Below are positions 20,782 through 32,736 of a DNA stretch of 34,493 bases, piece after piece. Both the position numbers and the translations under genes were made by a program. The stretch lies in NCBI RefSeq assembly GCF_000220565.1, contig NZ_AFPM01000284.1, forward strand, positions 1-34,493, in the 5' to 3' direction. This stretch comes from Oceanicola sp. S124. GTDB lineage: Bacteria > Pseudomonadota > Alphaproteobacteria > Rhodobacterales > Rhodobacteraceae. Each line of letters opens with the position of its first letter. The stretch's first letter is position 1. The notes under the pieces are model-generated. The model was not told where the DNA came from. It searched no databases and saw only the letters and a list, made by a program, of their open reading frames with translations.

Positions 20782-21113
20782 CAGGCGGCGCTCCTCTTGC
20801 CGACGGCGACGGCGTCCAGCATCAGCCGGCCCTCTTCCAGGCGGATCGGATAGGTGGCGATGCGGCCCTCGTCAGCACCCTGTGCCTCGCCCGTCTCAAG
20901 CGAGAACACCCAGTTGTGCAGCGGGCAGGTGACCTTGCGGCCATGCACGATGCCATCCGACAGCGGCCCGCCCTTGTGCGGGCAGCTGTTGGAAGCGGCA
21001 AAGACCTCGGCCTCGGCGGTGCGGAAGATGGCGATGCAGCCGACGGGTGTCTTGACCATCCGCGCGCCCCGCAGGGGCACGTCGTCGATATGTCCGATGT
21101 CGATCCAGCTCAT
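20781..21113 (-). CDS. nirD: Nitrite reductase small subunit with Rieske ligands
   Basis: A 110-residue Rieske-fold protein. Unlike the cluster-less NirD of enterobacteria it keeps both ligand pairs, SCPHKGGPL and TCPLHNW (C-x-H, 16 residues, C-x2-H), so it should carry a [2Fe-2S] cluster, like NasG of Paracoccus. It probably passes electrons to, or between domains of, NirB. The ATG overlaps the nirB stop as ATGA and its stop overlaps the nasA start, so nirB-nirD-nasA are tightly coupled. The length is normal for NirD. Confidence 0.93.
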   Translation of the reverse strand: MSWIDIGHIDDVPLRGARMVKTPVGCIAIFRTAEAEVFAASNSCPHKGGPLSDGIVHGRKVTCPLHNWVFSLETGEAQGADEGRIATYPIRLEEGRLMLDAVAVGKRSAA

Positions 21114-23548
21114 TCCGCGGCCTCCAGGGTGATGTCGGCAAGGGGCTGGTACTGATCGGCGCGACGTTCGGCGTGATCGGCCCAGGGGTCCTTGCGGTAG
21201 ACGGATTGCGAGATTTCAAAGCGCTCGTTCAGGGCGGCGCGCTCGGCGTCATCCGACAGACGCTCCTTCACCCAGTCGAGCCCCACCTTGGCGACCCATT
21301 TGTAGGGCCGGTCCAGGTACTTGGCGTGTTCGCGGTAAAGCTGGACGAAGGCGGCGGTCCATTCGATGGCCTCTTCTTCCGTCTTCACGTCGACGAGGCG
21401 CTCGGTTTCCTTCACGTCCATGCCAGCGGCACCGGCGACGCCCACCTGGAAGCCGCTGTCGACGCAGACGATGCCCACGTCCTTGCAGGTCGCCTCGGCG
21501 CAGTTGCGCGGGCAGCCCGAGACACCCAGCTTCACCTTGTGCGGCGTCCACGACCCCCACAGCTTCTGTTCCAGCTTGATGCCAAGCCCGGTGCTGTCCT
21601 GGGTGCCGAAGCGGCAGTGGTCCTTGCCCACGCATGTCTTCACCGTGCGCAGACCCTTGGAATAGGCATGACCCGAGACCATGCCCGCCTGGTTCAGATC
21701 GTACCAGATCGCCGGCAGATCCTCCTTCTTCACACCCAGAAGGTCGATACGTTGGCCGCCGGTCACCTTTACCGTGGGAACCTTGTACTTGTCGGCGGCG
21801 TCCGCAATGGCGCGCAGCTCGTCGGGGGTGGTGATGCCACCCCACATGCGCGGCATCACCGAGAAGGTCCCGTCCTTCTGGATGTTGGCGTGGTTGCGCT
21901 CGTTCACGAAGCGCGACTGCAGGTCGTCCTGGTACTCCAGCGGCCAATCCGCCAGCAGGTAGTAGTTCACCGCCGGGCGGCAGACATGGCAGCCGTTCGG
22001 GGTGGTCCAGCCCAGCTCCTGCCAGACGGCGGGCTGGGATTTCAGTTCCTGCGCCTTGATCAACCGGCGCACGTCCTCATGCGTCAGGTCGGTGCAGCCG
22101 CAGACCGATTGCGCGGCGGGCAGGACGAAGTCATCGCCCAGCGTGGCGGCCATGACCTGTTCCACCAGACCCGTGCAGGTCCCGCAGGAGGCCGAGGCCT
22201 TGGTCGTAGCCTTGATATCGGCGAGGCTGCCTGCCCCGTCCTTGATAGCCTGGACGATCTGTCCCTTGCATACGCCGTTGCAGCCGCAGATCTCCGCGTC
22301 ATCCGGTAAGGCTGCAACGGCTGCCAAAGGGTCCCCTGCGGCCCCCCCCTGGAAAGCCGGTCCGAAGATCAGGGTGTCGCGCATCTCGGCGACGCTTTCA
22401 CCTTCCTTGATCAGGCCGAAGAACCAGCTGCCATCGGCGGTGTCGCCGTACATCACCGCGCCGATCAGGCGATTGTCCTTCAGAACCAGTCGCTTGTAGA
22501 CGCCGCGTGCGGGATCACGGAAGACGATGTCCTCGCGGTCCTCGCCCTCGGCGAAGTCACCGGCGCTGAACAGGTCGCAGCCCGTCACCTTCAGCTTGGT
22601 CGAGACCTCTTTCTGCACGAAGGTGGCAGGCTTGCCCGACAGCGTCGCGGCGGCCACCTTGGCCTGCTCGTAAAGCGGCGCGACGAGGCCGAAGATGGCG
22701 CCGTTGTGCTCGACGCATTCGCCGACCGACAGGATATGCGCGTCCGAGGTGACCATCTGGTCGTCGACATGGATGCCCTTGTCCACGGCCAGCCCGGCCT
22801 GCTGGCCAAGCGCCACGTTGGGGCGGATGCCGACGGCCATGACCAGCAGGTCGCAGGGCAGCACGGTGCCATTGTCCAGCTCCAGCCCGGTCACATGGCC
22901 GTTTGCGCCAAGGATCTGCTTGGAGTTGGTCGAGCACAGCACCTTGATGCCCCGGCCCACCAGTTCCTTGCGCAGCAGGTAGCCCGCGGCCTCGTCCAGC
23001 TGGCGTTCCATCAGGTGGCCCATCAGGTGAACGACCGTCACGTCGACACCGCGCGCATGAAGGCCGGCGGCAGCTTCCAGTCCAAGGAGGCCGCCGCCGA
23101 TCACCACCGCTTTCGCAGCCTGTTGCTCTCCCAGGGCGATCATGCGGTTGGTGTCTTCCAGATCCCGGTAGGCGATGACGCCGTCCAGGTCGTGCCCCGG
23201 AAGGGGGATGATGAAGGGGTTCGAGCCGGTGGCGATGACCAGCTTGTCGTAGGGCAGGACATCGCCGGTCTCGGTCATCACGCGGCGGTTGGCGCGGTCG
23301 ATCTCGGCCACCTTCTCGCCGAAGCGGCAGGTGACGCCGTGCTCTTCGTACCAGGCATCGTCATGGGTGACGATCTCCTCGTAGGTCTTCTCGCCCGAGA
23401 GGACGGGGGACAGCATGAGGCGGTTATAGTTGCCGCGCGGCTCGGCGTTGAACAGGGTGACATCCCAGTCCTCGCCCTGGTCCAGCAGATGCTCCAGCAT
23501 CCGGCCCGAGGCCATGCCAGCCCCGATGACGATCAGCTTTCTGGTCAT
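21110..23548 (-). CDS. nirB: Assimilatory NAD(P)H nitrite reductase large subunit
   Basis: An 812-residue protein with FAD (VIGAGMASGR, residues 6-15) and NAD(P) (VVIGGGLLGLEAA, about 148-160) Rossmann motifs, two BFD-like segments (CGCNGVCKG...CGTC near 420-460 and CGCTD...CHVC near 485-525), and the siroheme/[4Fe-4S] reductase domain. The siroheme-cluster cysteines are C639 and C645 (CVGKDHC) and C679 and C683 (CPRNC). The enzyme reduces nitrite to ammonium with six electrons in the cytoplasm. AAGGAGA precedes the ATG. It lies 22 bases after the globin gene and is coupled to nirD. A siroheme synthase gene is not in the window. Confidence 0.96.
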   Translation of the reverse strand: MTRKLIVIGAGMASGRMLEHLLDQGEDWDVTLFNAEPRGNYNRLMLSPVLSGEKTYEEIVTHDDAWYEEHGVTCRFGEKVAEIDRANRRVMTETGDVLPYDKLVIATGSNPFIIPLPGHDLDGVIAYRDLEDTNRMIALGEQQAAKAVVIGGGLLGLEAAAGLHARGVDVTVVHLMGHLMERQLDEAAGYLLRKELVGRGIKVLCSTNSKQILGANGHVTGLELDNGTVLPCDLLVMAVGIRPNVALGQQAGLAVDKGIHVDDQMVTSDAHILSVGECVEHNGAIFGLVAPLYEQAKVAAATLSGKPATFVQKEVSTKLKVTGCDLFSAGDFAEGEDREDIVFRDPARGVYKRLVLKDNRLIGAVMYGDTADGSWFFGLIKEGESVAEMRDTLIFGPAFQGGAAGDPLAAVAALPDDAEICGCNGVCKGQIVQAIKDGAGSLADIKATTKASASCGTCTGLVEQVMAATLGDDFVLPAAQSVCGCTDLTHEDVRRLIKAQELKSQPAVWQELGWTTPNGCHVCRPAVNYYLLADWPLEYQDDLQSRFVNERNHANIQKDGTFSVMPRMWGGITTPDELRAIADAADKYKVPTVKVTGGQRIDLLGVKKEDLPAIWYDLNQAGMVSGHAYSKGLRTVKTCVGKDHCRFGTQDSTGLGIKLEQKLWGSWTPHKVKLGVSGCPRNCAEATCKDVGIVCVDSGFQVGVAGAAGMDVKETERLVDVKTEEEAIEWTAAFVQLYREHAKYLDRPYKWVAKVGLDWVKERLSDDAERAALNERFEISQSVYRKDPWADHAERRADQYQPLADITLEAAE

Positions 23549-23570
23549 TTCGATCTCCTTGGGATCGGGG

Positions 23571-24011
23571 TTAGCTTGTCCCTGCCGCGGCAGGGGGTTC
23601 AGCGGGGTAGGCCGAGGCGATCATCGCGCCCGACAGCGTGGTGTAGGCAGTGACCCAGGCGGCCTTGACCTCGGGGGTGAAGTCTTCGCCCAGACCGGCT
23701 TCGAGGGTACGCAGCAGCGAGGCACCGACGGCCTCGTAATGGGCGGGCTGGACACCGTATTCGACATGGCGCGCGGCCAGGTCGGCGGCCACCGGCAGCA
23801 GCGCGGGAATGTCGTTCAGCCCCTTCACCACGGCGTTCAGCATCTGCATCAGCTTGCCGCCCTGTTTCTGCATATCCGCCCCGGCAAAGAGCGGCTTCAC
23901 CTCGGGGGCGGTGTCGAAAAGGTCGGCGTAGAAGATTTCGGCCGCCTTGCCCTTGATCGGCCAGACCTTGGCAAAACTCGACTGGACAAGGGTGATTTCA
24001 CTGGTTTCCAT
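23571..24011 (-). CDS. Single-domain bacterial globin
   Basis: A 146-residue globin resembling Vitreoscilla-type haemoglobin or the haem domain of flavohaemoglobins, without a reductase domain. The proximal histidine is in AARHVEYGV (about residue 89), followed by PAHYEAVGASLLRTLEAGL, the usual F-G region. CD-region FAGADMQKQGGKLMQML precedes the distal helix. It sits between nrtCD (6 bases away) and nirB (22 bases), so it is an operon member. Likely jobs are scavenging nitric oxide made by nitrite reductase, or binding oxygen; which of these is inference. The last ten residues (AEPPAAAGTS) form a flexible tail. Confidence 0.88.
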   Translation of the reverse strand: METSEITLVQSSFAKVWPIKGKAAEIFYADLFDTAPEVKPLFAGADMQKQGGKLMQMLNAVVKGLNDIPALLPVAADLAARHVEYGVQPAHYEAVGASLLRTLEAGLGEDFTPEVKAAWVTAYTTLSGAMIASAYPAEPPAAAGTS

Positions 24012-24017
24012 GGGTCA

Positions 24018-25709
24018 CTACTCCGCAGCTATCTTCGCCGTCGCCCTGCCTTCGGGCTTCGGCTTGGGTTTCGCGCCGTGCTCGTACTCCTCGAGGAAAT
24101 CGAGCACTTCCTGGCGGTAGTGGTAGTAGTCGGGATGTTCCAACAGAGCCTTACGGGTCCGGGGGCGCGGCAGGTCCACCTTGGTGATCTTGCCGATGGT
24201 GGCGCGGGGGCCGTTGGTCATCATGACCACGCGGTCGGCCAGCAGGATCGCCTCGTCGACGTCATGGGTGACGCAGACGGCGGTGACCTTGGTGCGCGAC
24301 CAGACCTCCATCAGCACCTCCTGCAGTTCCCAGCGGGTGAGGCTGTCGAGCATGCCGAAGGGCTCATCCAGCAGCAGCAGCTTGGGGGAAAGGGCGAAGG
24401 CGCGGGCAATGCCGACGCGCTGCTTCATGCCGTTGGACATGGAATGCGCCGGGCGGTCCATGGCATCGGCCAGGCCCACACGTTCGAGGTAATATTCCAC
24501 CACGTCCTGCTTTTCCGCCTGGCTGGCGCGGGGATAGACCTTGTCCACGCCAATCGCGCAGTTCTCGCGCGCCGAGAGCCAGGGGAAGAGGTTGGGCGAC
24601 TGGAAGACCACCGCGCGTTCGGGGTCCGCACCGCGCACCTCGTAGCCGTCCAGCTTGATCACCCCTTCCGAGATGTCATTGAGACCGGCGGTCATGGTCA
24701 GCACGGTGGACTTGCCGCAACCCGAGTGGCCGATGAGAGAGACGAACTCGCCCCGGTCCAGCTTCAGGTTGAAGTCCTCGACCACGGTCAGCGGGCCTTT
24801 CGGCGTCGGATAGACCTTGTGCAGGTTGTCGAAGCTCAGGAAGCGGTCGTCGATCATGCCCTTCTGCGCCTCGGTGACGGCCTTGGGCAGGTTGTGGATC
24901 GCCTCGACGCTGGGAAGGGTGCGGGTCTCTTCGGCCTTGGCCTCGATACCGACATCCATCAGGTAGGTGGTGACGCGGGCGCGCAGGACCTTGAAGGTCT
25001 CGTCGCTGTTCATCGCCGAGCGGTCGCGCGGCCGCGCCATGTCCACGGTGAATTCCTCGCCCAGGGTCCCGTCGGGGTTCAGGGCGATGATGCGGTCGGC
25101 CAGCAGGATGGCTTCGTCCACGTCATTGGTGATCAGCACGCAGGTCTGCTTTTCCTCGTTCCAGATCGCCTCGATCTCGTCGCCGAGGTTGGCGCGGGTC
25201 AGGGCGTCCAGCGCGGAAAGCGGCTCGTCCAGCAGCAGGACTTCGGGGTTCATCGCCAGGGCGCGGGCCACGTTGACCCGCTGGCGCATGCCGCCAGACA
25301 GCTCCGCCGGGCGGCGGGTCGTGGCGTGGGACAGGCCGACCATCTGGATGTACTTGTCGGCCTTGGCCGTCTTCTCGGCCTTCGACAGGCCGGGGAAGAT
25401 CGTGTCCACCGCCAGCATGACGTTGCCGTGCACCGTCAGCCAGGGCATCAGCGAGTAGTTCTGGAAGATCACGCCGCGCTCGGGGCCGGGGCCCGTGACG
25501 GGCTTGCCCTTGAACAGGACCTCGCCCTTCGTGGGCGCTTCCAGCCCGGCAAGCAGGTTGATCAGGGTGGTCTTGCCGCTGCCCGAGAAGCCCAGCAGGA
25601 CCAGGAATTCGCCTTCCGCGACGCTGAGGTCGATGTCCTTCAGCACGTGGGTGGCATGGGTGCCCTCGCCGAAGCTTTTCGAGACGTTCTTGAGATCCAG
25701 GATGCTCAT
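24018..25709 (-). CDS. nrtCD: Nitrate ABC transporter ATPase, two tandem nucleotide-binding domains (NrtC-NrtD fusion)
   Basis: A 563-residue protein with two complete ABC ATPase domains joined by a linker of about 60 residues (225-290). Domain 1: Walker A GFSGSGKTT (40-48), signature LSGGMRQ (137-143), Walker B VLLLDE (157-162), and an Asn (N195, in TNDVDEA) where the switch histidine belongs. Domain 2: Walker A GHSGCGKST (327-335), altered signature MSNGMKQ (424-430), Walker B LLLLDE, and a normal switch H482 (THDVDEA). It powers NrtB at the membrane. ATG at 25709 is taken; GTG at 25718, overlapping the nrtB stop as GTGA, is an alternative. The longer reading back to 26093 is inside nrtB. 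A Lys/Pro tail ends the protein. Confidence 0.93.
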   Translation of the reverse strand: MSILDLKNVSKSFGEGTHATHVLKDIDLSVAEGEFLVLLGFSGSGKTTLINLLAGLEAPTKGEVLFKGKPVTGPGPERGVIFQNYSLMPWLTVHGNVMLAVDTIFPGLSKAEKTAKADKYIQMVGLSHATTRRPAELSGGMRQRVNVARALAMNPEVLLLDEPLSALDALTRANLGDEIEAIWNEEKQTCVLITNDVDEAILLADRIIALNPDGTLGEEFTVDMARPRDRSAMNSDETFKVLRARVTTYLMDVGIEAKAEETRTLPSVEAIHNLPKAVTEAQKGMIDDRFLSFDNLHKVYPTPKGPLTVVEDFNLKLDRGEFVSLIGHSGCGKSTVLTMTAGLNDISEGVIKLDGYEVRGADPERAVVFQSPNLFPWLSARENCAIGVDKVYPRASQAEKQDVVEYYLERVGLADAMDRPAHSMSNGMKQRVGIARAFALSPKLLLLDEPFGMLDSLTRWELQEVLMEVWSRTKVTAVCVTHDVDEAILLADRVVMMTNGPRATIGKITKVDLPRPRTRKALLEHPDYYHYRQEVLDFLEEYEHGAKPKPKPEGRATAKIAAE

Positions 25710-25714
25710 GACGC

Positions 25715-26797
25715 TCACCGGTTGTTCGAGAAGGTGAAGAGGGACTGCAGGGCGAACATCACGCGATCCAGCAGGAAGCCGATCACGCCGATGGTCAGCA
25801 CCGCGACCATGATCCTGGCGAGCGAGCTGGAAGAGCCGTTCTGGAACTCGTCCCAGACGAACTTCCCAAGGCCGGGGTTCTGGGCCAGCATCTCGGCCGC
25901 GATCAGGACCATCCAGCCGACACCGAGCGACAGGCGCAGGCCGGTGAAGATCAGCGGCAGCGCCGAGGGCAGCACCAGCTTGGTGATCTTCGACCAGGTG
26001 CCCATCTTCAGCACCTTCGACACGCTGATCAGGTCCTTGTCGATCGAGGCCACGCCAAGCGCGGTGTTGATCAGCGTCGGCCAGAGAGAGCACAGCGTGA
26101 CGGTGATGGCCGAGACCAGGAAGCTTTTCGCAAACAGCCCGTCATTGGTGGTGTAGACCGCCGAGACGACCATGGTGACGATGGGCAGCCAGGCCAGCGG
26201 GCTGACCGGCTTGAAGATCTGGATGATCGGGTTCAGCGCCGCATTGGCGGTGACCGACAGACCGGCGGCGATGCCCAGCGGAATGGCGACGGCCGAGGCG
26301 ATCAGGAAGCCGAAGAACACCGTCTTGATCGAGGTCCAGATCTGCGCGTAGTAGCTGGGCGCGCCGGTATAGGGGATCTCCTTCACCTTTTCCGGCTGGC
26401 CGTTGGCGATGAACCTCTCGTTGCGCGCATCGACGCGCTCCTGGAACGCGCGGCGGTCGGCGGCGGTCTGGATGGCGCTTTCGTGCAGCTGCACGGCTTC
26501 GGTCCAGACCTGCGCCGGTCCGGGCACGGCCCCGAGAGAGGTCTGCACGCGGGGCGCCAGGGTGCCCCAGAGGGTCAGGAAGACCGCGATGGCCAGCAGC
26601 GGCACACCCAGCAGACGCCAGATGTCGCGGGCCTGGGCCTTGGGGTTGTCGCCGGCGGCGGCCTTCAGGATCGGGGTGATCCAGGCGAGGCCCAACACCT
26701 GAAGCCATTTGTCGATGGCATTGATGCGGGTGAAAAGCTTGGCGCGACGGGCCTCGCGGGCCTCTTTGCGCGCAAAATCGGGATCGACAGTGGTCAT
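25715..26797 (-). CDS. nrtB: Nitrate ABC transporter permease
   Basis: A 360-residue inner-membrane permease of the NrtB/SsuC/TauC group. Hydrophobic segments are visible near residues 63-85, about 160-190 and across the C-terminal half; the coupling-loop region LVLPSALPLIFTGLRLSLG, which docks with the ATPase, is near residues 285-305. The N-terminus has an unusually long charged cytoplasmic extension (about residues 1-60) and an inserted polar loop (about 95-150) before the core domain. ATG at 26797 is chosen because AAGGAGA lies 7-13 bases upstream; reading further to 26878 would add an Arg/Pro-rich stretch lacking family features. It lies 244 bases after nrtA. Confidence 0.93.
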   Translation of the reverse strand: MTTVDPDFARKEAREARRAKLFTRINAIDKWLQVLGLAWITPILKAAAGDNPKAQARDIWRLLGVPLLAIAVFLTLWGTLAPRVQTSLGAVPGPAQVWTEAVQLHESAIQTAADRRAFQERVDARNERFIANGQPEKVKEIPYTGAPSYYAQIWTSIKTVFFGFLIASAVAIPLGIAAGLSVTANAALNPIIQIFKPVSPLAWLPIVTMVVSAVYTTNDGLFAKSFLVSAITVTLCSLWPTLINTALGVASIDKDLISVSKVLKMGTWSKITKLVLPSALPLIFTGLRLSLGVGWMVLIAAEMLAQNPGLGKFVWDEFQNGSSSSLARIMVAVLTIGVIGFLLDRVMFALQSLFTFSNNR

Positions 26798-26847
26798 GCG
26801 TCTTCTCCTTGATCTGCGGGAGGGCCCGCGAGGTCGGTCTGGTGTCC

Positions 26848-26894
26848 GGTTGGCAGGGCACGCACCCCTGCGGGGCATCGCCCGACCGCCAACC
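26848..26894 (-). other. Intergenic stem-loop nearest nrtB
   Basis: GGTTGGC (26848-26854) pairs with GCCAACC (26888-26894), enclosing smaller GC-rich stems. It is the last of three hairpins met by transcription between nrtA and nrtB and ends about 50 bases before the nrtB start codon. There is no T run, so RNA protection or modulation of downstream expression fits better than termination. Confidence 0.5.
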
Positions 26895-26981
26895 CTTTCA
26901 TTTCATTTCGTATTCAAGGATTCGCGCGAAGCCGGGGGTTGCCTGTTTCAAGCTTTCCCGGGGCTCCGCCCGTGATTGGCC

Positions 26982-27004
26982 CGAAAGGTCCCCCGGACCT
27001 TTCG
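26982..27004 (-). other. Perfect 10-bp stem-loop, second of two abutting hairpins after nrtA
   Basis: CGAAAGGTCC and GGACCTTTCG are perfect inverted repeats with a 3-base loop. It directly abuts the next hairpin (27005-27032) with no base in between. In transcription order it follows that hairpin. It may act as partial terminator or 3'-end stabiliser for a short nrtA message. Confidence 0.6.
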
Positions 27005-27032
27005 CCTGTCCCCCGAAGTCTCGGGGGACAGG
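27005..27032 (-). terminator. Perfect 12-bp stem-loop just after nrtA, probable partial terminator/mRNA stabiliser
   Basis: CCTGTCCCCCGA (27005-27016) and TCGGGGGACAGG (27021-27032) form a perfect 12-bp stem with a 4-base loop, 9 bases beyond the nrtA stop. There is no T run after it, because another hairpin follows immediately, so a rho-independent terminator is not proven. Such hairpins after periplasmic-receptor genes commonly raise receptor mRNA relative to permease mRNA. Confidence 0.6.
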
Positions 27033-27041
27033 TACGGTCAA

Positions 27042-28409
27042 TCACCCCTGAACCTCATTGCCGACGACAACCTGCTCGCCCTTCAGGCCGATCGGCAGGC
27101 TTTCCAGGTAGGCGTTCGGGGCTTTGCCGTCGTAGCCGATGCCGTCGATCACGTCAGAGGCAGGGGTCGGCGCCTTGTAGCCATCGCTGTCCCAGGGGAA
27201 GTCGGCTTCATTGGCCAGGCCCTCTTCCACCAGCAGGCGGGCGGCCTCCAGGTAGATCTCGGGCTTGTAGACCGACTTGGCGACCTCGTCGTACCAGCTG
27301 TCCGGCTTGGCCTCGGGGATCTGGCCCCAGCGACGCATCTGGGTCAGGTACCAGACCGCGTCCGAGTAGAAGGGATAGGTGGCGTTGTAGCGGAAGAAGA
27401 CGTTGAAGTCGGGGACCTCGCGGGTGTCGCCCTTCTCGTATTCGAAGGTGCCGGTCATCGAGTTGGCGATGACCTCGTAATCCGCGCCGACGTATTCGGG
27501 ACGCGACAGGATTTCCACGGCCTCGGGGCGGTTGGCGTTGTCGTTCTCGTCCAGCCACTGTGCGGCGCGGATCAGCGCCTTGGTCACGGCCAGCGTGGTA
27601 TTGGGGTTCTCTTCGGCGAAGGCGGCGGAGATGCCGAAGACCTTTTCCGGGTTGTTCTTCCACAGCTCGTAATCGGTGATCACCGGCACGCCGATGCCCT
27701 TGAAAACCGCCTGCTGGTTCCACGGCTCACCCACGCAGTAGCCCGAGATGGTGCCGGCTTCCAGCGTGGCGGGCATCTGCGGCGGCGGGGTGACCGACAG
27801 GAAGGCCTCGGCGCCGATCTGGCCGGTGACGTTCTCGGGCGAGTAATAGCCGGGCTCGATGCCACCGGCGGCCAGCCAGTAGCGCAGCTCGTAGTTGTGG
27901 GTCGAGACGGGGAAGACCATGCCCATGTTGAAGGGCTTGCCCTGGGCGTTGAAGCTCTCGATCACCGGCTTCAGGTGGGAGGCGGAAATCGGATGCGCGA
28001 TCTTGCCGTCCGCGTCGGTTTCCAGGCCGGGCTTCATCATCTCCCAGACTTCATTGGAAACGGTGATGCCGTTGCCGTTCAGGTCCATCGAGAAGGGGGT
28101 GATGATATGCGCCTCGGTGCCGTAGCCGATGGTCGCGGCCAGCGGCTGGCCGGCCAGCATGTGGGCGCCATCCAGGGTGCCCGAGATCACGCCATCCAGC
28201 AGCACCTTCCAGTTGGCCTGGGCTTCCAGCGTGACGAAGAGGCCCTCATCGTCGAAGAAGCCCTGCTCATAGGCGACGGCCAGCGGCGCCATGTCGGTCA
28301 GCTTGATGAAGCCGAAGGTCAGCACGTCCTTTTCCAGGTCGAGCATTTCGGCACTGGCGGGCGCGACCATGGCGGTCGTGGCGGCCAGAGAGAGAAGAAG
28401 TCGCTTCAT
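27042..28409 (-). CDS. nrtA: Nitrate-binding periplasmic protein of the ABC transporter
   Basis: A 455-residue exported receptor. [20 protein letters not shown] (1-20) is a Sec signal peptide; the mature part has NrtA landmarks [17 protein letters not shown]-type [10 protein letters not shown] and [12 protein letters not shown]. It binds nitrate (and possibly nitrite) and delivers it to NrtB. ATG at 28409 gives the signal peptide directly; the extension to 28499 would run through the regulatory leader and is rejected. The gene starts about 60 bases after a leader terminator that NasT probably controls, and is followed by three strong hairpins before nrtB. It is a paralogue of NasS encoded just upstream, which lacks a signal peptide. 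Confidence 0.95.
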
Positions 28410-28432
28410 TTCATACCCCGTCTTTGTTTCTG

Positions 28433-28460
28433 GCCCGGGGTTGGTTTCAATCTCCCGGGC
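28433..28460 (-). other. Stem-loop between leader terminator and nrtA start
   Basis: GCCCGGG at 28433-28439 and CCCGGGC at 28454-28460 are inverted repeats with a 14-base loop, 24-51 bases upstream of the nrtA ATG. It lies outside the ribosome site and may protect the processed 5' end. Function is inference. Confidence 0.4.
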
Positions 28461-28467
28461 GAACACG

Positions 28468-28518
28468 AAAAGCCACTCTGACAGACCGGATGGAGGCATC
28501 CGGATGTCGAGCGGCTTT
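28468..28518 (-). terminator. Leader intrinsic terminator upstream of nrtA
   Basis: On the minus-strand RNA, AAAGCCGCTC (28518-28509) pairs with GAGTGGCTTT (28478-28469) with one G-U pair, then GACA pairs with TGTC, and at the tip CCGGATG pairs with CATCCGG around a CCTC loop. This gives about 21 pairs with a small internal loop. The stem runs straight into a U-rich end (CUUUUCGUGUU). The 5' arm is shared with the hexaloop hairpin at 28508-28523, so the two structures exclude each other. Confidence 0.7.
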
Positions 28519-28542
28519 GCTCAGTCGAACCCAATCAGTGGG
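28508..28542 (-). promoter_or_regulatory. ANTAR-type antiterminator RNA element (probable NasT target)
   Basis: The minus-strand RNA forms TGAGC-AAAGCC-GCTCG at 28523-28508, a 5-bp stem with a six-base loop having A at position 1 and G at position 4. This is the loop signature recognised by ANTAR-domain antiterminators. Its 3' half is the 5' arm of the terminator at 28468-28518. Six bases upstream, CCCACTGATTGGG (28542-28530) can form a second small hairpin whose loop starts A-C-T-G, close to but not exactly a canonical hexaloop. The layout between nasTS and nrtA is what NasT control requires. Binding is inferred, not shown. Confidence 0.65.
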
Positions 28543-28577
28543 AGAAAGTCGTCAGGTGGGCGCCATTGCCTGCCTGT

Positions 28578-28597
28578 GATCCCGAAGGTGCGGGATC
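28578..28597 (-). other. 7-bp stem-loop early in the nasS-nrtA gap
   Basis: GATCCCG and CGGGATC pair perfectly around a six-base loop (CACCTT in the RNA), about 90 bases after the nasS stop. The loop lacks the A1/G4 bases of ANTAR targets and no U run follows, so it may be a transcript-end or protection hairpin for nasTS. The rest of the gap 28598-28685 is A/T-richer and probably includes the nrtA promoter, but no clear -35/-10 was found. Confidence 0.4.
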
Positions 28598-28685
28598 GGC
28601 GGCGTTCGCGCAAAGGTTCGGTGACAATTCGCGGTGTTTTTGGCGTGCCAGACAGAAGCTGCCGAAAAATGCGCCAGGTTTTCGC

Positions 28686-29870
28686 CTATTTGCCGCGCGA
28701 CGGCTCAAAAACGCGGCCATCGAAGAAGGAATCGGGCAGCAGCGACAGCTGCCCATGGGCCGAGGCGATGGAGGTTTCGGCGGTGACGGCGCCCTCGATC
28801 TTGGCCGAAGCGCCGGGCAGATCGGCCTCCGAGCCGACAAGGGCGGCGCGGTGCAGGTCGCTGCGGAAGGCGCCGCCGCCGGCGCGCAGGGCGGCGTCGC
28901 GGTCCAGCCCGGTGCGGGCCGCCAGCTGATGTGCGATCCATTCCGCCTGGCTGCGCCAGGGGAAGGTCGCACAGCCCTTGTGGAAGCCGACGAAACCGAG
29001 GGTCTCGCGCGTGTCGCCGCGCCCGTTGATCACCATGCGCCCGGACAGCGAGCGTTCCAGCACCTCGACGGGCAGGTTCAGGTATTCGGGCCGCGACAGC
29101 AGCTCGGCGGCCAGGCCGCGCGAGTCGGGCTCGGCCAGCCAGCGCCCGGCGCGCCAGCAGGCGCGGATCAGGCGGCCCAGCAGCGCCTCTTCGCTTTCCG
29201 CCCAGTCGGTACGGGCGGCCAGCACCTTCTCGGGGGCAAAATTCCAGATCGCCTTGCCGGGCAACAGCAGTTCTCCGGCGCCGTTTTCCACGGTGATGCT
29301 GCCCCAGGGTTCACCGACGCAGAAGGCGTCGATCTCTCCGGCGGCCATGGCATCGGCCATCAGAGGAGGCGGCACGGTGCGGATCGACACGCTCTGCGGT
29401 GCGGGCAGGCCGAGGGCCGACAGCCAGTAGTAAAGCAGTTCGGCGTGCATCGAGAAGGGGAAGGGCACCCCGATGCGCAGCGGGGCATCGGCGGGCTTGG
29501 CACGGATCAGCGCCTCTCCGGCGGCGCGGGCATCGTGGAAGGCAAAGTCATGGCCCACCTCGCGCAGCCGTGCGGCGAGCGCGTTCGAGACGCCGATCAC
29601 CGTGCCGTTGACCGACAGAACCGAGACCGCCGAGAGCGCCGCACCGGTGCCCCCCAGCCCAAGCGCAGAGGCAACCGGCACCGGCGAGAGCATATGCGCC
29701 GCCTCGACCCGGCCAAAGACCAGCATGTCGCGCAGGGACGACCACGAGGGCGCCTTGACCAGCTCCAGCGCGATGCCCTCTTCGGCGGCAAAGCCCATTT
29801 CCTGCGCGGCGATCAGCGGCGCGGCATCGACCAGCGGGATAAACCCGACATTCAGGCTGACCGCCTTCAT
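28686..29870 (-). CDS. nasS: Nitrate-sensing regulatory protein NasS
   Basis: A 394-residue cytoplasmic relative of NrtA: it begins MKAVSLNVGFIPLVDAAPLI with no signal peptide and shares landmarks with NrtA, including AHMLSPVPVA, FCVGEPWGS, LLSRPEYLNL and GRGDTRE. In Azotobacter and Paracoccus, NasS binds NasT and holds it inactive until nitrate or nitrite is bound. The ATG overlaps the nasT stop as ATGA, so sensor and antiterminator are made together. Unlike most CmpA/NrtA-like proteins it ends with a short basic tail (EPSRGK). Confusion with a second transport receptor is unlikely given the missing signal and the nasT coupling. Confidence 0.92.
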   Translation of the reverse strand: MKAVSLNVGFIPLVDAAPLIAAQEMGFAAEEGIALELVKAPSWSSLRDMLVFGRVEAAHMLSPVPVASALGLGGTGAALSAVSVLSVNGTVIGVSNALAARLREVGHDFAFHDARAAGEALIRAKPADAPLRIGVPFPFSMHAELLYYWLSALGLPAPQSVSIRTVPPPLMADAMAAGEIDAFCVGEPWGSITVENGAGELLLPGKAIWNFAPEKVLAARTDWAESEEALLGRLIRACWRAGRWLAEPDSRGLAAELLSRPEYLNLPVEVLERSLSGRMVINGRGDTRETLGFVGFHKGCATFPWRSQAEWIAHQLAARTGLDRDAALRAGGGAFRSDLHRAALVGSEADLPGASAKIEGAVTAETSIASAHGQLSLLPDSFFDGRVFEPSRGK

Positions 29871-30451
29871 CCCAGAAGCCCCGCAGCGGTGACCAGCGCC
29901 TGCGCCACATCGGCAACCCGGCGGTTCTGGTCCATGGCGGTCTTGCGCAGCAGGGCATAGGCCTCGTCCTCGCCCATGCCGCGCGCCTTCATCAAGAGAC
30001 CCTTGGCGCGGTCGATCACCTTGCGCTCTTCCAGCGCGCGCTTGGTGGCGGCCAGTTCGTTGCGCATCCGCTGGAACATGTTGAAGCGCGCCACGGCGGC
30101 ATCCATCACCGGCTTCACCCGGTCCGGCTGCAGCCCGGCCACCACGTAGGCCGAGACCCCGGCCTCGATCGCGGCGCGGGTCAGCCCGTCGTCGCTCTGG
30201 TCCACGAACATGGCGACGGGGCGCTCCAGCGGGCCCGAGGCCAGTGTCAGCTCTTCCAGCATGTCGCGCGAGGGGTTGGCGATATCCACCAGTACCATGT
30301 CGGGGTTATGCGCCTTCACCCGCCGGGCCAGCCCGGTGACCTCGGCGATGACGTGGATGTCGTAATCCCCCGCCTCGGCCAGGCTGTCGACGATCAGCAT
30401 GGCGCGGTCACGGTCCGGCTCGACGACGATGATGGAAAGCTTGTCCGACAT
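29867..30451 (-). CDS. nasT: ANTAR-domain transcription antiterminator NasT
   Basis: A 194-residue protein: receiver-like domain (1-120) and C-terminal ANTAR RNA-binding domain (about 130-190, ERKVIDRAKGLLMKARGM then EAYALLRKTAMDQNRR). D56 is at the phospho-acceptor position (VLVDIANPSRD), but the conserved receiver lysine is absent (SAYVVAGLQ), consistent with control by NasS binding rather than phosphorylation. It should bind hexaloop hairpins in the nas leader and prevent termination. ATG at 30451 has CGGGAG just upstream. The longer reading to 30949 crosses the divergent promoter and opposes the methyltransferase gene, so it is rejected. It is the first gene of the regulatory pair. Confidence 0.94.
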   Translation of the reverse strand: MSDKLSIIVVEPDRDRAMLIVDSLAEAGDYDIHVIAEVTGLARRVKAHNPDMVLVDIANPSRDMLEELTLASGPLERPVAMFVDQSDDGLTRAAIEAGVSAYVVAGLQPDRVKPVMDAAVARFNMFQRMRNELAATKRALEERKVIDRAKGLLMKARGMGEDEAYALLRKTAMDQNRRVADVAQALVTAAGLLG

Positions 30452-30591
30452 GCTCCCGACATGGCGGCAGAGCAGGGCGCTTGTAAACAGAAACGATGCG
30501 GCAGCGCGGCAAGAGCCCCCCGGCCCCCGCCGCGCCCTGCTGAAAAAGGTGGCGCGCGAGCCCGTGCAGCAAGGCGCCCCGGGGCCAACAC

Positions 30592-30606
30592 TTAATGGTT
30601 GATTAA
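30592..30606. promoter_or_regulatory. Perfect CtrA-like box in the nasT-methyltransferase divergent region
   Basis: TTAATGGTTGATTAA is an exact TTAA-N7-TTAA, the CtrA recognition pattern, inside a short A/T-rich island in otherwise very GC-rich DNA. It ends 97 bases before the methyltransferase ATG and begins 140 bases from the nasT ATG in the 252-bp gap 30452-30703. It probably marks the promoter of one of the two divergent genes. The remainder of the gap shows GC-rich sequence with no clear sigma-70 or sigma-54 promoter. Confidence 0.5.
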
Positions 30607-30703
30607 ATTTGATGCGACGATTTGGGGACGTTGTGGGCGGGGGCCTTTGGCCTAGGCTTTTGCCACGCCCTGTTGGGGCGGGTAGCGCGTGAAAGGGTTC
30701 CCC

Positions 30704-31632
30704 ATGCAGATACTGGATCACCCCCCGATGACCTGGCGCGAGGATCAGCGCGTCGCCTGGCCGATGAAGAAGCTGGGACATGCCCAGCTGGGCGCCCGCG
30801 AGGGGGCCATGCTGTACTACCTGGCCCGAGACTGGGCCTCGGGCGCGCGTCCGCTGGTCGAGCTGGGCTCGTTCCTTGGCGGGTCGGCCTCGCTGACCGG
30901 CGCGGGGCTGAAGGACAACCCGCTGTGGAACGGCCAGACGAAACTGCATTGCTTCGATATCTTCGAGGCGAAATACGGCAACATGGCCGAGTTCATCCGC
31001 ACCCGCGTCGATCCCGATTTCGAAGCGGGGCAGAATTTCCAGTATCTCTTCGATGCCCAGACCGCCGAGGTCTCAGAGGCGATCGAGGTGCATCGCGGCG
31101 ACCTGATGCAGGCCAGCTGGAGTGGCGGAGAGATCGACATGCTGTTCGTCGACATCGCCAAGACGCCGGACCTGAACCGCATCACCCTGCAACGCTTCCT
31201 GCCCGCCCTCAGGGTCGAGACGGGGCTGCTGGTGAACCAGGATTTCCACAATCCGGACAACCCCTGGATCCATACCTCGCTGGGCTTCCTGTCCAGCCAC
31301 TTCGAGCTGATCGAGCCGCGCGCCGATGATTCCATCCTGCTGCGCCTTGTCCGTCCGATCCCGCCAGAGGCGCTGCGCGAGGCCGGGCGCTTCGAGGACC
31401 TGCCGGACGAAGAAGCGATGAACCGGGTCAACCGGCTGATGTCGCTGCTGCGCCAGAACGATGCCGAACCCGCTATGTCGAGCTGGTCCGCGCCCGGCTG
31501 CAGATTCGCGCCGGCAACCGCGCGGCGGGGCGCGCCACGGTCGAGGCGGCGCTGGCCCGCTACGGCGAGGGGGATCCCAAGACCGATTTCTTCTGGAAGC
31601 GGCGGGCAGACTCGGTGCAGGCGCTGGCGTGA
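30704..31632 (+). pseudogene. SAM-dependent methyltransferase-like protein with apparent -1 frameshift near its C-terminus
   Basis: The first 255 or so residues (MQILDHPPMTWREDQR...) read as a class I methyltransferase-like protein, with LVELGSFLGGSASL as the SAM-binding loop and DMLFVDIAKTPDL as the acidic strand. In the first frame, sequence after 31471 becomes Arg/Ser/Pro-rich with no coding character. In the frame one base back, from 31472 to a TGA at 31630-31632, it continues naturally as RYVELVRARLQIRAG...TDFFWKRRADSVQALA. Restoring one C in the CCC run at 31469-31471 joins the two into about 309 residues. This is either a real one-base deletion or a sequencing error. AAAGGG precedes the ATG at 30704. 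Substrate unknown. Confidence 0.75.
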
Positions 31633-31668
31633 CCCCAGCGGCCTGATCTCACTGACCTGATCCACCGG

Positions 31669-31684
31669 CCTGCGGGCGCGCAGG
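31669..31684 (+). terminator. Possible terminator stem after the methyltransferase gene
   Basis: CCTGCG-GGCG-CGCAGG is a perfect 6-bp stem with a 4-base loop, 37 bases after the methyltransferase stop and 75 before pirin. No T run follows, so termination is uncertain. Confidence 0.3.
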
Positions 31685-31758
31685 ATCACTGTGCGCCCCC
31701 GGGCAGTTCCCGCGCAGCCATTTCGGGTTATCTTCCTTGCAACAGGAGGACCCGAAAG

Positions 31759-32736
31759 ATGAGCTGGAACCCCGATCACCTGCTGACCGACCCCGACCTT
31801 GTCGCCGCCTCGGCGCTGGAAACCGTGCTGGTGCCGCGCGCCCGCGACATCGGCGGCTTCGAGGTGCGCCGCGCCCTGCCCGCGCCGAAGCGGCAGATGG
31901 TCGGCCCCTTCATCTTCTTCGACCAGATGGGCCCGGCAGAGCTGCTGACCGGCGAAAGGATCGACGTGCGCCCGCATCCCCATATCGGGCTGGGCACCGT
32001 TACCTACCTCTATGACGGGGTGTTCCATCACCGCGACTCGGTCGGCTCGGACCAGCTGATCCGGCCCGGCGACGTCAACTGGATGGTGGCAGGGCGCGGC
32101 GTCAGCCACTCCGAACGCTCGCCCTCGGCCGAGGCGGGCGGGCCGCTCTACGGTATCCAGACCTGGATGGCCTTGCCCAGCCGGGACGAGGACCGCGCCC
32201 CGGAGTTCGAGCACCACCCCAAGGCCAGCCTGCCGATGCTCGAGGCGCATGGCATCTCGGCGCGGCTGATCCTGGGCACTGCCTTCGACGAAACCGCTCC
32301 GGCGACGCTGTTCTCGGAAACCTTCTACCTGGACGTGACGCTGGCGCCCGGCGCCGCCTTCCCCCTGCCCGACGATCACGAGGATCGCGGGCTGCATGTC
32401 ACCCACGGCAGCCTCGAGGTGGCCGGGCAAAGCTTCGAGGCCGGGCGGATGATGGTCTTTCGCCCCGGCGACCGGATCTCGGTCCGCGCCGGGCAGAAGG
32501 GCGCGCGGTTCCTCGCCCTCGGCGGCGCCACCCTGCCCGAACCGCGCTACATCTGGTGGAACTTCGTCTCGTCCTCGCCCGAGAAGATCGAGGCCGCCAA
32601 GCTGGACTGGCGGCGCGGCGACTGGGGCCGCGGGCTGTTCGACCTGCCCGCCGGCGATACGGCAGAGTTCATCGAGGCGCCCGAGGATCGGCCCGGGCGG
32701 ATGACCCCGATGCAGGCCGGCCCGCGCGGCGGTTGA
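31759..32736 (+). CDS. Pirin family protein (cupin)
   Basis: A 325-residue bicupin. The metal-binding set of pirins is visible as H73 and H75 (PHPHIG), H117 and E119 (GVSHSE), with the conserved PFIFFDQMGP just before. Pirins bind iron and some act as quercetin dioxygenases or as redox-sensing partners of other proteins; the sequence does not reveal which. AGGAGG lies 11-16 bases before the ATG. The C-terminal part (WNFVSSSPEKIEAAKLDWRRG) is the usual pirin C-terminal segment. It stands between the methyltransferase gene and ada, transcribed in the same direction, without overlap. Confidence 0.92.
   Translation: MSWNPDHLLTDPDLVAASALETVLVPRARDIGGFEVRRALPAPKRQMVGPFIFFDQMGPAELLTGERIDVRPHPHIGLGTVTYLYDGVFHHRDSVGSDQLIRPGDVNWMVAGRGVSHSERSPSAEAGGPLYGIQTWMALPSRDEDRAPEFEHHPKASLPMLEAHGISARLILGTAFDETAPATLFSETFYLDVTLAPGAAFPLPDDHEDRGLHVTHGSLEVAGQSFEAGRMMVFRPGDRISVRAGQKGARFLALGGATLPEPRYIWWNFVSSSPEKIEAAKLDWRRGDWGRGLFDLPAGDTAEFIEAPEDRPGRMTPMQAGPRGG

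Follow-up and report, generated by a model that had tools for sequence, protein, structure and literature searches.

A candidate triple-hexaloop NasT leader upstream of nrtA in Oceanicola sp. S124

The RNA leader between nasS and nrtA on the minus strand of the window (the whole 34,493-nucleotide stretch of DNA analysed here) very probably acts by NasT-type antitermination. It is read here, with a probability of about 0.58, as a triple-hexaloop NasT leader in which the loop of the middle hairpin has drifted to seven bases and all three loops would dock NasT. The basic NasT switch is already known; what seems to be different is the presence of three docking hairpins, where textbook leaders have two. 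The analysis itself established the hairpins, the mutual exclusion of P2 and the terminator, conservation, covariation and the gene context; NasT-leader binding, the splitting of NasS-NasT by nitrate and the effect of linker length on EutV are taken by analogy from published work on relatives.

Gene context and structure of the leader

On the minus strand, nasT (30454-29867), nasS (29870-28686, overlapping the end of nasT), a 276-base gap and nrtA (28409-27042) lie in this order, and nrtA is followed by genes for a permease, an ATPase with two ABC domains and a globin, by nirB and nirD, and by a gene for a molybdopterin oxidoreductase, which resembles nitrate reductases with scores below the family cut-offs. 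The product of nasT, the start codon of which was set from the domain extent, is a receiver and ANTAR protein presumed to be an RNA-binding antiterminator; its ANTAR domain (PF03861, E 2.4e-22, matched in the longer open reading frame 29867-30949) is the single ANTAR match detected in the assembly (91.66% complete), and its receiver-domain match was under the Pfam cut-off. By sequence, the nearest solved chains in the PDB are 1s8n, 6wsh and 4akk, the last of which is presumably NasR. The first two are Rv1626 and EutV, respectively (PMC8934654). The adjoining nasS encodes an NrtA-like nitrate/nitrite sensor (PF13379, E 1.6e-66) at the start of which, judged from sequence, a signal-peptide-like stretch was not seen; its nearest named relatives among the best 80 of 444 matches are from the MAG Rhodobacteraceae P03SWT1bin.7 (96% identity) and Pseudooceanicola marinus (88%). 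NrtA, encoded by the first gene under presumed leader control, matches PF13379 with an E of 1.9e-92. A receiver and ANTAR protein adjoining an NrtA-like sensor is the arrangement of a NasS-NasT system, and the PF03861 and PF13379 matches agree with an earlier sequence-only reading, in which NasS and the ANTAR protein NasT were held to be encoded upstream. No sigma-70 promoter pattern was found within 21000-32000. The globin gene (23571-24011) sits amid the assimilation genes, flanked by the transporter ATPase gene and nirB; in Bradyrhizobium, such an operon is likewise credited with a single-domain haemoglobin (PMC6759348).

Folding of the leader RNA revealed three hairpins and a terminator. 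The most upstream hairpin, P0 (28553-28576, minus strand), has arms CAGG-CA-GGC and GCC-CA-CCTG around the loop AATGGC (28567-28562), with A at loop position 1 and G at position 4 (A1/G4), and a stability of -10.4 kcal/mol; it lies outside the coordinates of the sequence-only reading and was missed there. The second hairpin, Pm (28530-28542, minus strand), has arms CCC and GGG around the seven-base loop ACTGATT, again with A1 and G4. Pm had been described as a non-canonical hairpin and the first of two; the hairpin is indeed present, but because P0 sits upstream, Pm is the middle of three. The seven-base-loop form of Pm was computed at -2.8 kcal/mol and a form with 4 bp and a 5-nt loop slightly better at -3.9 kcal/mol, a preference that counts against reading the array as triple. 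The third hairpin, P2 (28508-28523, minus strand), is the antiterminator half, with an outer pair T28523-G28508 and arms GAGC (28522-28519) and GCTC (28512-28509) around the loop AAAGCC (28518-28513). A C:G pair closes the loops of P0, Pm (in its 7-nt form) and P2; the C:G pair closing the hexaloop is known from SELEX for NasR (PMC7496416). P0 and P2 thus provide the two six-base loops with A1 and G4 of a two-hexaloop ANTAR leader, and the leader departs from a design of two hairpins only, in that a third conserved hairpin with G4 stands between them. The possibility that Pm is instead a palindromic DNA site (TCCC-N7-GGGA) bound by a protein was disfavoured, since the letters of the stem vary from lineage to lineage and the pairing is kept.

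The intrinsic terminator (28461-28517, minus strand) consists of a stem at 28517-28470 and a U-rich tail at about 28471-28461, and the sequence directly 3' of the stem is UUUUCGUGUU. In a 126-nt fold, the stem has 20 pairs (28517-28509/28470-28478, 28508-28505/28480-28483 and 28503-28497/28486-28492); folded alone, it has 21 pairs and an outer pair, at -32.3 kcal/mol, in line with the roughly 21 bp and U-rich tail described before. The arm 28517-28508 is common to the terminator and P2, the last hairpin, and the two structures therefore exclude each other. This bears out the earlier claim that the AAAGCC hexaloop and the terminator are mutually exclusive, with the shared bases placed at 28517-28508 rather than 28509-28518. 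In folds of the growing transcript, P0, Pm and P2 form up to base 28476, the terminator closes after this point, and P2 is displaced solely by the final portion of the terminator 3' arm; this is the folding order required if a protein is to bind P2 before the terminator forms. A simple terminator scan did not have the leader terminator among its calls, and the stem is imperfect; furthermore, the U-run is only four long, by eye shorter than that of many relatives, which counts against the triple array. A strong hairpin (GCCCGGG...CCCGGGC) was also seen at 28433-28460, between the terminator tail and nrtA, and 29/57 leaders of the family have a post-terminator hairpin containing 5 or more GC pairs (shuffle mean 7.2, max 14).

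The 126-nt stretch is unusually stable (z -3.09; 1 of 200 dinucleotide shuffles was as stable), but the Pm-P2 stretch on its own is not (z 0.11; 103 of 200 shuffles were equally good), and it is for this reason that comparison across leaders matters.

Conservation of the hairpins among family leaders

For this comparison, 149 genomes of the family were searched, 70 of which had a NasS/NrtA-like match, and nasS-nrtA gaps were taken from 59 loci in 58 genomes; of these 59, L058 (its genome also gives L010) and L040 (P2 not clear) were left out of the rows scored. Because the first two P2 finders misplaced or missed many leaders, P0 and P2 were assigned from a list, in seven leaders by eye. Both hairpins, the homologue of P0 included, were assigned in 57/58 leaders, with the loops 38-63 nt apart (mean 49). 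A1 is present in 55/57 and G4 in 57/57 leaders for P0 and P2 each, counts that are no test, because the picks leaned on these letters. The P0 loop is AATGGC in 18/57 leaders, and 54/57 leaders passed a loose terminator test. A C:G pair closes the loop in 56/57 leaders for both P0 and P2 and, counted by eye, in 45/57 for Pm.

Compensatory changes, for which alignment of these gaps had been proposed, were found in a plain MAFFT alignment of the family leaders. Changes on both sides were seen in 5/6 pairs of P0, 4/4 of Pm and 2/5 of P2, and the covariation score was 0.442 compared to 0.186 in shuffles (reached by 0/500), with slid structures at most at 0.179. The number of pairs changed on both sides (11) was matched by 89/500 shuffles, and the proportion of alignment cells holding pairs was low for Pm (60.5%; 88.0% for P0 and 90.9% for P2), both of which count against the triple array; it should be noted that these counts are not independent events, because the leaders are related. 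Altogether, gene context, conservation and compensatory changes support the earlier proposal of a NasT-type leader.

In each leader, linker hairpins with six- or seven-base loops were ranked by stem energy only, with the loop letters ignored, and the best was taken as Pm. G4 was found in 41/57 of these loops compared to 19.6% in shuffled linkers (sd 5.8, max 38.6%), and A1 together with G4 in 24/57 compared to 2.9 in shuffles (max 8). A similar result was obtained with a second set of 80 related, named loci of the same family, 56 distinct leaders of which were scored after the omission of 12 duplicates, 11 loci without P0 by rule (among them L087 and L109, in which the P2 pick itself appears wrong) and 1 without P2: G4 was present in 40/56 (shuffled 18.9%, max 37%) and A1 with G4 in 25 (shuffled 3.1, max 10). 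In the seven-base Pm loops of the first set, G stands at position 4 in 23/28 and at position 5 in 1/28, as if one base had been added 3'; six-base loops have G4 in 18/29. The enrichment extends to the 22/57 leaders with stems other than the CCC type, 14 of which have G4. When Pm was chosen by energy register (loops of 4-8), the result was weaker, with G4 in 24/57 (shuffle 19%, max 35%) and G3 in 26/57, and this is counted against the triple array.

The alternative that survives best, and that is nonetheless rather unlikely, is a two-hexaloop leader of P0 and P2, in which Pm is a spacer that folds the long linker and thereby brings P0 and P2 together, with a loop that NasT does not read. Such a spacer would suit the retention of A1 in only 30/57 Pm loops as opposed to 55/57 for P0 and P2, a count that also weighs against the triple array; the presence of linker hairpins that are stabler than chance (mean -5.4 versus -2.3 kcal/mol in shuffles, sd 0.3); and the finding that L030, which has the longest P0-P2 distance (63 nt), also has the longest linker hairpin. 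However, a spacer does not call for the G4 enrichment of the Pm loop in two sets and in stems of other types, nor for the exact hexaloops that Rhodobacter sp. CZR27 and several Paracoccus records have in the position of Pm. In addition, an exact A1/G4 Pm occurs in 3/5 leaders whose P0 is deviant, compared to 9/57 overall (permutation p 0.023), in a small test devised afterwards. These data argue for a Pm loop that is read, as the triple-hexaloop leader supposes, and the G4 enrichment, together with the usual loop-to-loop distance to P2, supports the earlier suggestion that 28530-28542 is a variant hexaloop.

The gap between nasS and P0 contains a TGCNGCA motif in 37/57 leaders (shuffle mean 5.6, max 11; e.g., L005, L007 and L030), in tandem in 14 (shuffle mean 0.19, max 2), perhaps as an activator site; the gap of the window itself is without the motif.

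Hairpin spacing, other lineages and known systems

In the window, the linkers are 10 nt between P0 and Pm, 6 nt between Pm and P2 and 29 nt between P0 and P2, with the outer pairs of P0 counted; the medians in the 57 leaders, for uninterrupted stems, are 12 (1-20), 6 (2-21) and 33 (20-47), and the P0-P2 linker is at most 25 nt in 2/57. From loop to loop, the family medians are 21 nt for Pm to P2 and 28 nt for Pm to P0. Natural eut linkers are 5-12 nt long, and linkers of 3 or 14 nt in a eutP construct cut induction drastically (PMC3369931); antitermination by EutV was abolished by the addition of 20 nt (PMC8934654), and a survey of ANTAR targets admitted linkers of 2-25 nt (PMC8164766). The P0-Pm and Pm-P2 linkers fit these limits and the P0-P2 linker does not, with the limits derived from EutV and not NasT. 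The two canonical hexaloops of the window are, at 29 nt, farther apart than in two-hexaloop leaders of this description, and the 6 nt between Pm and P2 would be suitable, with Pm being non-canonical.

Outside the family, the two terminator-nearest hairpins are 16-27 nt apart from loop to loop in 26/30 leaders, and by this spacing it is Pm that takes the position of the first canonical hairpin, with P0 as the additional one. A third, upstream A1/G4 hexaloop was found in 7/25 of the leaders with a canonical pair (stems of 5 bp or more; shuffle mean 0.45, max 4), from four family handles plus Sphingomonas parapaucimobilis; the 18/25 without it count against a triple array. A broader count was 12/30, from which five leaders (L166, L169, L174, L176 and L180) were dropped because the P1 chosen in them was a non-A1 middle hairpin, mostly noticed via an outer pair; the count omits L167, L179, L182 and leaders lacking a recognisable pair. 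In L171, L172 and L173, the canonical pair is preceded at a distance of about 100 nt by extra hexaloop hairpins, possibly a second array. By eye, a TGGCACG-N4-TTGC/TGC motif, presumably akin to the sigma-54 consensus, is present shortly upstream of the hexaloops in several leaders outside the family (L210, L214-L219, L233, L237 and others).

Named plasmid records were also inspected; 16 were fetched, chosen from 40 listed of 172, and 14 were scored, with the omission of Sinorhizobium meliloti (L197) and of Paracoccus sp. AK26 (L245), the latter having a different gene order. Three A1/G4 hexaloops in a row are present in 6/14 records, as a raw count: Rhodobacter sp. CZR27, Paracoccus ferrooxidans, P. 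versutus, P. marcusii, Sphingomonas sp. NIC1 and S. parapaucimobilis, P. ferrooxidans and P. versutus being near copies. Allowing G1 raises this to 8/14, with the addition of P. denitrificans HAMBI_2443 and Haematobacter massiliensis. Two hexaloops were seen in P. yeei, P. alcaliphilus, Novosphingobium, Phyllobacterium and Ruegeria sp. B32, and a clear hexaloop array was not found in the Blastomonas record. The third hexaloop of CZR27 overlaps a terminator having a run of T; by eye, the arrays in P. denitrificans, P. ferrooxidans and P. versutus are not followed by a clear T-run.

An improbable alternative is the two-hexaloop leader of Pm and P2 as read earlier, with P0 serving only to protect or start the transcript at its 5' end. 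The canonical Pm-P2 spacing and 6-nt linker are as such a leader would have them, and some leaders outside the family have, by eye, a non-hexaloop 5' hairpin at the P0 place; however, the loop of P0 is the stricter one in AATGGC, A1 and G4 (picked partly on these letters), and its stem covaries.

It is very improbable that the leader is an ordinary terminator behind nasS with chance hairpins and no NasT control, for although its location and the unremarkable stability of the Pm-P2 stretch would allow this, the array shows both conservation and compensatory changes, nasT lies two genes upstream, and the sole clear match of model R1 in the genome is the nasS-nrtA leader. With an E limit of 10, R1 had 9 matches in its own genome, the leader being the best (E 5.5e-9); the next (C29:13383-13441, E 0.015) is antisense inside a 368-aa open reading frame and was taken as chance instead of a second NasT site, and the remaining seven had E 1.8-8.5. 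Across the class, 16/289 genomes, the own genome included, had a match at E of at most 0.1, and three sites (G170, G255 and G409) adjoin a NasS/NrtA-like match by coordinates; the match in G409, from another family, is weak (C54:1603-1682, E 0.07) and lies just upstream of the NasS/NrtA-like gene. Rfam release 15 covariance models gave 0 matches at the gathering score in the window and, even with E allowed to reach 1, none in 28400-28700.

The closest described arrangement of genes is that of the Paracoccus denitrificans nasA leader, where nasT-nasS likewise lie upstream of a transporter gene with hairpins in the gap, the downstream gene being nasA there and nrtA here (PMC3795266, PMC5424462). 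The hairpins described there are two, HI at 137 bp and HII at 91 bp upstream of nasA (PMC3795266, PMC5424462), and a change in HI left expression on nitrate severely deficient, whereas a change in HII hardly did so (PMC5424462); the HAMBI_2443 plasmid record has three G4 hexaloops at -155, -130 and -107. The two-hexaloop ANTAR RNAs of eut, nasF and amiE share with the window A1/G4, the C:G closing pair and a last hexaloop overlapping an intrinsic terminator, but have two hairpins, where three are present here with 29 nt between P0 and P2 (PMC3369931, PMC7496416, PMC8934654). In the Bradyrhizobium nosR leader, NasT on a leader hairpin likewise prevents a terminator, but the gene is one of denitrification (cited in PMC6759348, PMC10620151). 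The nearest precedent for three loops is the EutX/rli55 RNA, a dual hexaloop plus an extra G4 hexaloop; however, it is described as sequestering EutV and not as a leader before a terminator (PMC8934654). No description of three hexaloops in a NasT leader was found in the available portions of the literature, and papers on the Azotobacter, Pseudomonas aeruginosa and Bradyrhizobium nosR leaders might hold one.

Proposed switch and its meaning

In published systems, NasS-NasT is split by nitrate, free NasT is roughly a hexamer, and NasT binds the nasA leader (PMC3795266). By analogy, in the absence of nitrate NasS would hold NasT, and RNA polymerase would stop at the terminator near 28470. In the presence of nitrate or nitrite, NasT would be freed and dock on the hexaloops of the nascent RNA as each emerges, P0, then Pm, then P2; P2 held by NasT would keep the 5' arm of the terminator unpaired and permit readthrough into nrtA and the nitrate/nitrite assimilation genes. 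The Pm of the window, despite its seven-base loop, retains G4, is closed by a C:G pair and lies as far from P2 as is usual. We infer contact of NasT with all three loops in this order, Pm included, and Pm may instead be a spacer. An array of three sites would suit successive contact or a NasT oligomer.

A wider reading, tentative and at somewhat less than even odds, is that the basic plan of NasT leaders is an array of three hexaloops (loops about 28 and 21 nt apart in this family), that NasT is passed between hairpins or that three dimers of a hexamer are bound at once, and that the hexaloop that has decayed differs by lineage. In the EutV structure, a dimer touches one hexaloop at a time, though hexaloop spacing is critical (PMC8934654); a conserved three-hexaloop array of known spacings makes the question of contact versus spacing testable. 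Searches for ANTAR targets with a two-hairpin model that allows linkers of no more than 25 nt would pair the wrong hairpins in such leaders or overlook them, and if the three-hexaloop array is general and its decay lineage-specific, the rule of two hexaloops would be only one case of a wider pattern.
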